Positions 11,842 through 57,258 of a DNA stretch of 64,000 nucleotides are shown in pieces. This stretch comes from Mycobacteriales bacterium (GTDB taxonomy: Bacteria > Actinomycetota > Actinomycetes > JAFAQI01 > DASSKL01), in contig DASSKL010000010.1 of NCBI GenBank assembly GCA_035690485.1, forward strand, positions 64,856 to 128,855, in the 5' to 3' direction. The first letter of the stretch is position 1. Each line of letters starts with the position of its first letter. A program made the translations under genes and the position numbers. The notes under the pieces were generated by a model that was not told where the DNA came from, made no database searches, and was given only the letters and a program-made list of their open reading frames with translations.

Positions 11842-12369
11842 GTGGACGTCCAGGCGCTCGCTGCGCTCGACCTGCCCGACCGGACCGGCACCGCGCACCG
11901 CCTCGGCGACCTGTGGCGCGACCACCCGGAGATCGTGGTCTTCCTCCGCCACTTCGGTTGAATCCACTGCCGCGAGCACGCCGCGCAGTTGCGCGACACC
12001 TACGACGAGATCCGCAGCACCGGCGCCGACGTCGTCGCGATCGGGACCGGAGACGCGAGGTACGCCGCGAGCTTCGTCGACCAGGAACGCATCCCATTCC
12101 TCGTGCTGGTCGACGACGACGCCTCCGCCGCGCGAGCGGCCTCGGTGCGCGACTCCAGCCTGCTGCGGCTCGTCTCCCCGATGACGTGGCCGGCCGGCAT
12201 GCGTGCCTTCCGGTCCGGCGTACGGCAGCACCGGTCCGGCAAGCGGCCGACCCAGCTGGGCGCGACGTTCGTCATCGCACCGGGTGACGACGTGCGCTAC
12301 TCGCACCTGGACGACGACGCCTCCGACCACGCCCCGCTCGACGACGTGATGGCCGTCCTGCGACAGTGA
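11842..12369 (+). CDS. Peroxiredoxin-like (AhpC/TSA_2) protein with in-frame TGA at codon 40, probable selenoprotein
   Basis: The frame starts at GTG 11842, meets TGA at 11959-11961 and continues without another stop to 12369, giving 175 residues if TGA is read as selenocysteine. Around it the product reads FLRHFG-U-IHCREHAAQL. The thioredoxin-fold AhpC/TSA_2 (SelL-related, PRXL2-like) family has FLRHFGCxxCRE here, so U replaces the first cysteine of the CxxC redox pair and Cys43 is its partner. Codon use after the TGA is as GC3-rich as before it, and the rest (VVAIGTGD, FLVLVDDD, QLGATFVIAPG) is intact, so decay is unlikely. A SECIS-like hairpin follows. The role would be thiol or peroxide reduction in the cytoplasm. 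Alternatives are a nonsense mutation or a sequencing error. Selenocysteine genes are not in view. Confidence 0.75.
11959..11961 (+). other. In-frame TGA, proposed selenocysteine codon (Sec40)
   Basis: The codon lies between GGT (Gly39) and ATC (Ile41) in a UxxC arrangement with Cys43. It falls exactly at the conserved first cysteine of the family motif, where chance nonsense mutations are not expected to concentrate. Confidence 0.7.
11982..11995 (+). promoter_or_regulatory. Candidate bacterial SECIS hairpin
   Basis: Bases 11982-11986 (CGCGC) pair perfectly with 11991-11995 (GCGCG) around a four-base loop AGTT. The loop begins 25 nt after the TGA and has G at its second position followed by T. 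In known bacterial SECIS elements a short stem carries a small apical loop about 16-37 nt after the UGA with a G among the first two loop bases, which SelB reads. A second, bulged hairpin with an AGCA loop (11967-11988) is also possible but too close to the TGA. GC-rich DNA forms chance hairpins, so this supports the proposal but does not prove it. Confidence 0.5.
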
Positions 12370-12371
12370 AT

Positions 12372-12401
12372 GCATAGCCACGTTATATAGTGGCCTTATG
12401 C
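12372..12401 (+). promoter_or_regulatory. Palindromic operator over the marR promoter and start codon
   Basis: An imperfect inverted repeat, GCATAGCCAC (12372-12381) and GTGGCCTTATGC (12390-12401), encloses a TATAGT -10 box (12386-12391). The ATG at 12398 follows the -10 by 6 nt, so the right arm covers both the transcription start and the start codon. The layout suits autorepression by the MarR protein. The patch is far more A/T-rich than its surroundings. Confidence 0.55.
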
Positions 12402-12874
12402 AATCGAGCTCGGTCGACGCTCGCCTCGCCGCCGTCTTCGAACAGCTGGTGCGGATGACCCGCCGGCTGGCGACCACTGGTGAGCTCAGCCTGCCTGCCG
12501 CATCCGTCCTCGCCCGGCTGGCCCGGGAAGGGCCGCAACGGCTGACCGAGCTCGCCGGGCACGAGGGTGTCTCGCAACCCGGGATGACCCAGCTCGTCAG
12601 CCGCCTCGAACGCGACGGTTACGCGCTGCGCACGCCGTCTCGAGACGACGGGCGCGTCGTCATGGTCGAGGTCACCGCCATCGGGCGCGCGGTCGTCGCG
12701 CAACGCCGCGAGGAACGCGCCTCCGCGCTGCGCGAGATGCTCGGCCGGCTCGAGCCCGCGGACCGCCGCGCCATTCGTGCCGCGCTGCCGGCCCTGAACC
12801 GGCTCGTCTCGCTGTCCCCCATCACATCGACGGAATCTCCGGCGCGGGCCGGGGCTCGTGGAGATATCGCATGA
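12398..12874 (+). CDS. MarR-family transcriptional regulator
   Basis: This 158-residue winged-helix protein has the helix-turn-helix region at about 45-75 (RLTELAGHEGVSQPGMTQLV) and the wing DGYALRTPSRDDGRVVMVEVT at about 80-100; both are close to the MarR consensus, including the conserved Asp-Gly-Arg. MarR dimers usually repress neighbouring efflux genes and release DNA on ligand binding. The leaderless ATG sits inside its own probable operator. The stop overlaps the ATG of the downstream MFS gene (ATGA), so the two form an operon, but that pump is broken. Confidence 0.9.
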   Translation: MQSSSVDARLAAVFEQLVRMTRRLATTGELSLPAASVLARLAREGPQRLTELAGHEGVSQPGMTQLVSRLERDGYALRTPSRDDGRVVMVEVTAIGRAVVAQRREERASALREMLGRLEPADRRAIRAALPALNRLVSLSPITSTESPARAGARGDIA

Positions 12875-13564
12875 CCGTCCCCCGCACCAACCCGTTCCGG
12901 CAGCCGCGCGCCGTGTGGGCAGTGGCCTTCGCCTGCGTCATCTCGTTCATGGGCATCGGACTGGTCGATCCGATCCTGCCCGCCCTCGCGCACAGCCTGC
13001 GCGCACGCGCCCTACCCGATGCATCTGGACGCGCGCCACCTCGGCCTCGTCTTCACCGGCTGGGGCCTGCTGGTCGCACTGTTCAGCGTGTTCGTCGCGC
13101 CACGACTGCAGGCCAGGTGGGGCACTGCGCGCGTGCTCTACGCCAACCTGTTGCTGCTCGGTGGCGTGATGGCCGCAATCGCTGCAGGCGTCAACACGCC
13201 GGACGTCGTCATCGGCGCAGTCGTTGCCAGCGGGGCGTTCATCGGCATCAACAACACGCTGACGACGCAGGCGGTGATGCTGGTCTCGCCCGTGGACCGG
13301 CCGGTCGCGTCGTCGGCGTACGGCTTCGTGCGGTTCATCGGCGGTGGTCTGGCGCCCTACGTCGCCGGCAAGATTGCGGACGCCTCCTCGCTCAGCGTGC
13401 CCTTCTACGTCGGCGCCGCGACCTTCGTGCTGGCCATCTTCGTCCTCGCCACCGGGCACCGCCTGCTGGCCGCGGCGGAGTCGGGCCAGGTCGACGTCGT
13501 CCCCGTGACGAAACCAACCCAGGAGGACGCCGTGGCCGTCGCCGAAGCGCTCGAGATCGGCTGA
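12871..13564 (+). pseudogene. MFS efflux transporter, internally deleted and frameshifted
   Basis: The first frame (ATG 12871) encodes a normal MFS start with TM1 (AVWAVAFACVISFMGIGLVDP, about residues 14-34) and then turns into nonsense near 13005. A second frame begins about 13010-13019 and encodes only the C-terminal half of an MFS protein (LGLVFTGWGLLVALFSVF, then PVASSAYGFVRFIGGGLAPY), ending at 13564. TM2 to TM6, about 180-190 residues, are missing and the two pieces are out of frame. An internal deletion that shifted the frame explains this best. Homologues of about 400 residues follow MarR regulators and export drugs. The C-terminal piece alone is unlikely to transport. An assembly error is a lesser possibility. 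Confidence 0.75.
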
Positions 13565-55758: not shown

Positions 55759-57258
55759 TCAGCGACCGTCGTGTGGAGCCCAACCGCCGTTCGTGTCGGT
55801 GTAGGCGATCCACGCGTCGGTCGCGCCGGCCCGCTGCAGGGCCGCCTGGAGCAGCGCGCCCTCGCGGCCGGACCGCGGCACCGCGAAGGCTCCTGCCGAC
55901 GCGCCGCACCGGCCGGCCGCCGCCGCCACCGCCACCGCGGGGGCGAGGACGGTCCACCCACTGCCGGACCGGCAGGCGACGGCGTGCCGGCCGCTGCAGG
56001 GCACCGCCACGAACCTCCCGTCGGAAGCCCGGGCGACGGCGCAGGCACCGGCGGCGCTCGGCTCGTCCTGCGCCCACGACCAGATCGAGCCCGCGAGCCG
56101 GGAGTCGTCCGGGAGCAGCTGGTCGAACCCGACGAGGTTGACGCCGCAGCGCGCCATGTGCGCGGCCATCGGCGCGTCGATGTGGTCCCCGTCGGGCGTC
56201 GCGAGCGCGGACACGAACGTCGAGTCCTCGTAGTAGCGGACGAACGTGCGGCCGTAGTGCTGCTGCGCCTGCGGGCCGTCGCAGGCCGGGAAGTCGGCGT
56301 ACGACGACGTCGTCTGCTCGAACTTGCCGGCGTCGTTGAAGACGAGGTCGTTCCAGCTGCTGGTCGTGGCGCCGTCCTCGCAGGTGCTCCAGACGACGAC
56401 TCGCTTGCCCGCTGCCAGCACCTGCGCCCGGGTGAGCGCCAGGTCGAGCGGGCGGCAGACCCCGGCGCGGTCGCCGGCGGACGGGTCGTCGGAGCTGCGG
56501 TAGACGAGGCTGCCGAACGCGTGCTCCACGACCTGCGCGGCGGCCTCGTGACCGGCGTGGTTCTGGAGGTCGTCGTCGACGTAGAGGAACAGGACCTCGC
56601 CCGGGTGCCGCTGCACCCAGTCGGCGACCGGCGCCAGCCCCTGCGCGAGCGTGCCCTCGATCGTGCAGCCGTAGCCGCCCGACTCCGCGTGGCAGAGCCG
56701 CACCTCGTCCTGCCCGGTGTGCGGGTCGAGCGCCCAGTGGGCGTCGACCTCCAGCGAGCGCATGTCCGAGTCGAGCTGGTCGACCATCGACAGCTGCTGG
56801 TTGGAGTCGAGCTGCGACAGCCCGGGCGGCGGATCGTTGGGGCCGTCGGGCACGGCGTTGAACGAGTTGTGGGTGCCCAGCCACTGGGCCTCTCGGAACG
56901 GCAGGTCGTCGCCGAGCGCCCGCTGCAGCACGAGCGCCCGGTGTACCCAGGTGCTCTGGTAGGCCGCCACCTCGCGGCGCTCGACCGGCGGCGCGAACGG
57001 CGTGACGCAGGCGGCGTCGTCCTGCAGCAGCCGCCGGCACAGCGCCGAGGCGTCCTGGCCGAACTTCTCGAACCCGCGGCAGGCCGCGGCGACGTTCGAC
57101 ACCTGGGCGGGCGCCTGCGCGTAGCACTGCTGGTACGACGGCAGCGGGTCGGGCACCGGCGCGTCAGCGGGGCGGTCCGCGGCGCGGGCGGCCAGCGGGG
57201 TGGCGAGGACGAGGGCGGCTACCGTCAGCCGGAGCGCGCGGAGCCGGGCGGCGTTCAC
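55759..57258 (-). CDS. Exported PI-PLC X-domain-like protein
   Basis: This 499-residue protein has a signal peptide (basic start, LTVAALVLATPLAARA, cleavage near residue 27). A Cys-rich region follows (YQQCYAQAP, AACRGF, LCRRLL), then a phosphodiesterase barrel with QWLGTHNSFNAVP (first His, about 125) and EVDAHWALDPHTG (about 165). HPGEVLFLYVDDDLQNHAG and SLEVDAHW resemble PI-specific phospholipase C X domains. The C-terminal 140 residues (ACAVARASDGRFVAVPCSGRHAVACR) look like a C-type-lectin-type or PLC-linked carbohydrate module. The enzyme may be a phosphodiesterase for inositol lipids; whether it is active is unknown. Confidence 0.75.
   Translation of the reverse strand: MNAARLRALRLTVAALVLATPLAARAADRPADAPVPDPLPSYQQCYAQAPAQVSNVAAACRGFEKFGQDASALCRRLLQDDAACVTPFAPPVERREVAAYQSTWVHRALVLQRALGDDLPFREAQWLGTHNSFNAVPDGPNDPPPGLSQLDSNQQLSMVDQLDSDMRSLEVDAHWALDPHTGQDEVRLCHAESGGYGCTIEGTLAQGLAPVADWVQRHPGEVLFLYVDDDLQNHAGHEAAAQVVEHAFGSLVYRSSDDPSAGDRAGVCRPLDLALTRAQVLAAGKRVVVWSTCEDGATTSSWNDLVFNDAGKFEQTTSSYADFPACDGPQAQQHYGRTFVRYYEDSTFVSALATPDGDHIDAPMAAHMARCGVNLVGFDQLLPDDSRLAGSIWSWAQDEPSAAGACAVARASDGRFVAVPCSGRHAVACRSGSGWTVLAPAVAVAAAAGRCGASAGAFAVPRSGREGALLQAALQRAGATDAWIAYTDTNGGWAPHDGR

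Follow-up and report, generated by a model that had tools for sequence, protein, structure and literature searches.

A predicted UxxC selenoprotein of the AhpC-TSA_2 (Prx-like-2) group with a SECIS-like hairpin in a Mycobacteriales genome

Results

The locus and its reading frame

The window studied here, a stretch of 64,000 nucleotides from a contig of a Mycobacteriales genome assembly (GCA_035690485.1; DASSKL010000010.1), carries at 11842–12369 on the forward strand a gene that, judged by its open reading frame, profile matches and relatives, would encode a selenocysteine (Sec)-containing Prx-like-2/SelL-related redox protein of 175 residues when read through an in-frame TGA. This TGA, at codon 40 (11959–11961, forward strand), is the sole internal stop, and the frame ends with a second TGA at 12367–12369. 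From the frame and the alignment of relatives the internal codon is the predicted Sec residue, U40, in the context FLRHFG-U-IHC-RE, where it takes the place of the first Cys in a redox CxxC whose second residue, Cys43, is encoded by TGC at 11968–11970 on the same strand. Re-reading the frame thus agrees with the original prediction of an otherwise intact gene with a single in-frame TGA at the first CxxC position. The GTG start aligns with the ATG start of the homologue L017, and the G+C content of third codon positions (GC3) is 0.95 upstream of the TGA and 0.93 downstream, in keeping with the earlier claim that codon bias is unchanged past it.

When the TGA is read through, the score against PF00578 is 48.7 bits, whereas the segment 3′ of the TGA by itself reaches 33.3 bits, which places the short N-terminal piece in the same domain. 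For NF040769 (SelL-related redox protein) the corresponding scores are 111.7 bits (residues 8–172) and 69.5 bits; this is a full-length match, though just below the curated cut-off of 120 bits, making the protein a close relative and no formal member. As these profile gains draw on both sides of the TGA, the two parts form one gene unit with the TGA at the first CxxC position. The read-through protein also scores 54.4 bits against PF13911 (AhpC-TSA_2; gathering threshold 27), and the family originally proposed, AhpC/TSA_2, is therefore right at the Pfam level. Standard gene calling would truncate the protein and remove its active site, which the corrected gene includes; a TTG is indeed present at 11989, where the annotated start had been expected to lie.

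A gene for a MarR-family regulator (12398–12874, forward strand) follows 28 bp downstream and is possibly co-transcribed with the Sec gene. When we looked for a conserved operon around the genes of the relatives, none was found, and MarR was not part of any conserved neighbourhood. For instance, L017 lies beside genes for a GMC oxidoreductase and a cupin, L049 beside an Lhr-type helicase, L056 beside a hydrolase and an amidohydrolase, and L057 beside a luciferase-like monooxygenase and a dehydratase. Since neighbours vary between relatives, and a MarR gene lies downstream in the window, the context names no substrate. Beyond the MarR gene, an MFS transporter gene (12871–13564) has an apparent frameshift near 13000, its start frame opening at 12871 and its MFS_1 match lying in another frame from 13019; it is only half length, and is either a pseudogene or the product of an assembly error.

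Exchange of Sec and Cys among relatives

We sought relatives in 397 genomes of the phylum, choosing their strand by similarity to the window protein, and found many NF040769 matches with exactly one TGA. The strong relatives in Actinomycetota mostly have one TGA, and in every one inspected it falls in the column of the window TGA. Among 35 sequences inspected, the window gene included, this column holds TGA in 25 and TGC or TGT in ten, with no other codon, so that the Cys/Sec exchange suggested as a check of the original prediction is seen. The TGA relatives (24 of 34 examined) extend down to roughly 25–30% identity and include one planctomycete sequence (L020), and their agreement on a single column excludes chance.

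The same data bear on two other ways of accounting for the TGA. One is that a former Cys gene shows a nonsense mutation or an assembly error at this codon, leaving a truncated protein that starts from the TTG at 11989, and the frameshifted, short look of the neighbouring MFS gene (about 12871–13564) does point to damaged genes or errors nearby. However, 24 relatives from independent assemblies carry TGA at the same codon, with Cys as the sole alternative seen, which in practice refutes this account; the unchanged GC3 past the TGA, the conservation of a hairpin specific to the TGA genes and the presence of Sec machinery in the genome (both below) also speak against it, and we regard it as very improbable. 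The other is that UGA codes for a different amino acid here (e.g. for Trp, as it does in code 4) or undergoes non-specific readthrough. The frame would be open under such a code, but relatives exchange the TGA for Cys codons only, never for Trp or Gly codons, the gene itself terminates with TGA, and a tRNA-Sec with the anticodon UCA is encoded in the genome, all of which make this account extremely improbable.

The distribution of tRNA-Sec was considered at a threshold of at least 60 bits; matches of about 45–52 bits, found in nearly all genomes, were taken to be cross-hits of other long-arm tRNAs. By this measure 16 of the 22 TGA genomes of the phylum have a tRNA-Sec, the other six being drafts (metagenome-assembled genomes, 83–98% complete). 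A tRNA-Sec is also present in both TGA genomes of the other collection, namely that of the nearest relative L017 (61% identical, from the Actinomycetota genome palsa_610; 70 bits) and that of the planctomycete L020 (72.6 bits), and the three Cys genomes there show no tRNA-Sec match above 47.1 bits. In the phylum, seven of 13 Cys genomes have a tRNA-Sec, which other selenoproteins in these genomes would explain; its presence is thus not specific to genes of the window type. The exchange is clean within a genus: L057 has TGA in a genome with tRNA-Sec while L055 has TGC in a genome without a strong one; in genus g118 the genome with the Sec form (G164) has a tRNA-Sec and that with the Cys form (G142) lacks a strong one. 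Such natural Sec/Cys pairs (e.g. L057/L055) are suited to direct tests of the retention and loss of Sec. About five switches of the Sec/Cys label have to be assumed on a maximum-likelihood tree, and well-supported branches require at least three of them.

A SECIS-like hairpin downstream of the TGA

A predicted SECIS apical hairpin, CGCGC[AGUU]GCGCG, lies at 11982–11995 on the forward strand, as judged by conservation and covariation. The G of its loop falls 27 nt after the UGA, and its stem continues through one C.A mismatch to an outer G-C pair (11980/11997). It has the features described for bacterial SECIS elements, a stem-loop shortly after the UGA whose small apical loop includes a G (PMC1088965). 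The same arrangement of stem, AGUU and stem occurs at one fixed distance downstream of the TGA in 21 of 25 Sec genes, and the AGUU hairpin is absent from the Cys genes (n = 10). Though the sequences are related and not independent, so that kinship inflates both the covariation and the codon counts, 95.9% of cells are paired in the 21-sequence hairpin, five of seven pairs show two-sided changes, the covariation score (0.343) is higher than in any of 500 shuffles or any slid version, and the UU of the loop belongs to a TTG Leu codon in 21 of 25 Sec genes compared to two of ten Cys genes (Fisher p = 0.0007). At other positions of the Sec genes, TTG accounts for 9% of Leu codons. When hairpin energies are compared with those of synonymous shuffles, the mean z is -1.9 for Sec genes and +0.1 for Cys genes; the window hairpin alone gives z = -1.8 (p = 0.046), a modest gain. 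Four Sec genes (L020, L048, L050 and L058) lack the AGUU element. In two of them, L048 and L058, a hairpin with a CGUGA loop is predicted instead, and their stems differ by compensatory changes.

Sec machinery of the genome

The genome to which the window belongs (3.13 Mb in 102 contigs, estimated to be 96.7% complete, and placed in the phylum Actinomycetota by its closest named relative, L017) contains selB (255.8 bits against a cut-off of 242.25; 271.4 bits for the full open reading frame), selA (414.6 bits), which adjoins selB on contig C102, selD (390.7 bits), and, on the same contig as selD, a tRNA-Sec (77.2 bits) that ARAGORN also calls as tRNA-SeC with anticodon TCA. The genes whose absence had been named as counting against Sec (selA, selB, selC and selD) are thus all found. 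A second TGA gene in this genome encodes the alpha subunit of formate dehydrogenase (FdhA), which reads QIENQARI-U-HSSTV around the TGA and scores 1498 bits against NF041513, above the cut-off. This gene (locus L063, 1354–3759 of contig C60 in genome G000) carries the TGA at the Sec site of the enzyme, codon 195 counted along the frame as read; by eye a hairpin can be drawn 3′ of it, GUCCCC-AGUCU-GGGGAC, whose loop likewise starts with AGU. We also considered whether the window contig might be misbinned, which is disfavoured: the citrate synthase encoded in the window is 75–78% identical to those of most members of the order, compared to 75% or less for the other phylum genomes sampled. The contig therefore very probably comes from this genome and lies in or near the lineage, though these identities are not sharp proof.

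Together with the Sec/Cys exchange, the four Sec genes strongly support the Sec reading of the original prediction, to which the conserved SECIS-like hairpin adds independent evidence of a further kind. From this conservation in sequence, Sec is almost certainly inserted at the UGA at 11959–11961. In such a scheme SelB with Sec-tRNA(Sec) would bind the mRNA hairpin at 11982–11995, and Sec would then be inserted at the UGA.

Fold and probable function

An AlphaFold2 model built from an alignment of 33 sequences, which left out L059 (a divergent Cys relative without CxxC), has a thioredoxin fold and is confident (pLDDT 94.6, pTM 0.91). U40, built as Cys, lies directly before a helix spanning residues 41–52, and the invariant columns of the alignment are G16, R36, U/C40, C43 and D91. 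The best match in the PDB, by both sequence and fold, is the human prostamide/PGF synthase PRXL2B (9us9/9usa; TM 0.83/0.89), with U40 and C43 falling on C44 and C47 of the human protein; BcpB, Bcp4 and ResA are the next fold matches. Judged by sequence and model, the most fitting description of the protein is a thiol/selenol oxidoreductase with a UxxC motif from the Prx-like-2 (AhpC-TSA_2, ‘SelL-related’) group.

We consider it very probable that the window gene encodes a 175-residue selenoprotein with hairpin-directed Sec at U40, a UxxC oxidoreductase of this group with a thioredoxin fold (PRXL2/SelU-like). Sec40, just before the N-terminus of helix 41–52 and paired with Cys43, would most likely attack a peroxide or a disulfide-type substrate, Cys43 would resolve the product as a selenenylsulfide, and a cellular thiol reductant would then reduce it.

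Nearly as plausible as not is a variant that departs from this explanation in substrate only, in which a real selenoprotein acts as a small-molecule reductase (like PRXL2B) or a thiol:disulfide oxidoreductase (like ResA) with no part in peroxide defence. It would fit the closest solved structure, a human PGF synthase whose catalytic C44/C47 correspond to U40/C43, the place of ResA among the best fold matches, a UxxC motif without the TxxC of peroxiredoxins, and the metabolic neighbours of the relatives, which differ from genome to genome. However, M. tuberculosis BcpB and archaeal Bcp4, both named peroxiredoxins, match the fold nearly as well, and the substrate may be a peroxide, a disulfide or an endoperoxide.

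Discussion

Animal SelL carries a UxxU motif, whereas the window protein has UxxC. The PF13911 group, which includes eukaryotic SelU/PRXL2 and human PRXL2B, is among the closest known ones, with a score above its cut-off and the nearest PDB entry in sequence and fold. However, the eukaryotic genes use an element in the 3′-UTR and the window gene a predicted bacterial SECIS inside the coding region, and PRXL2B, at 23% identity, has Cys44 where the window protein has Sec. With regard to the reduction of prostamide or PGH2, the likeness to PRXL2B is one of fold and motif position only.

Bacterial Sec proteins described previously include a pfam13911 family with UxxS and Prx-like thiol:disulfide oxidoreductases of pfam00578 with UxxC or UxxU (PMC9312934). 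The window protein resembles these in fold class and in the position of Sec, but has UxxC where the published pfam13911 entry has UxxS. Marine surveys also report UxxC Prx-like families, and SelL in both prokaryotes and eukaryotes (PMC2398784; PMC1088965). True Sec peroxiredoxins share the thioredoxin superfamily but carry TxxU (PMC1794560; PMC1088965), and the T/SxxC(U) motif of peroxiredoxins does not occur at the active site of the window protein, which reads FLRHFG-U-xx-C. The ‘peroxiredoxin-like’ label in the original prediction should not be taken as that of an established peroxidase, as the motif is UxxC instead of TxxU.

That AhpC/TSA_2-like selenoproteins were already established, as had been stated, is borne out by publications on Sec in AhpC-TSA_2 and UxxC Prx-like proteins (PMC9312934), and the window gene is a sound further example of a published type of selenium protein, not a new system. 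In the open-access papers searched we found no description of pfam13911 proteins with UxxC that occur across Actinomycetota and have a common SECIS. What is added is modest: a UxxC AhpC-TSA_2 selenoprotein for Actinomycetota, in a well-defined family with a SECIS at fixed distance, and the frequency of this form and its common SECIS in the phylum. None of the 12 order-mates has a close copy of the window gene, which may have been acquired horizontally. The chances are about even that a large and for the most part unannotated clade of UxxC AhpC-TSA_2 selenoproteins exists in Actinomycetota, with a shared AGUU-loop SECIS formed from a conserved rare Leu codon, that it is perhaps one of the main uses of Sec in the phylum besides formate dehydrogenase, and that the window gene reached its genome by horizontal transfer.

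Two further observations came from the search for relatives. Short, low-scoring Prx-like matches with one TGA (e.g. G069:C3:952404–952697 and G103:C15:20564–20854) may be selenoproteins of another Prx-like subfamily, or may simply extend beyond an ordinary stop codon. One genome, G037, carries tandem TGA copies of the same selenoprotein family (G037:C130:56125–56622 and 56700–57194), the second of which is L049.
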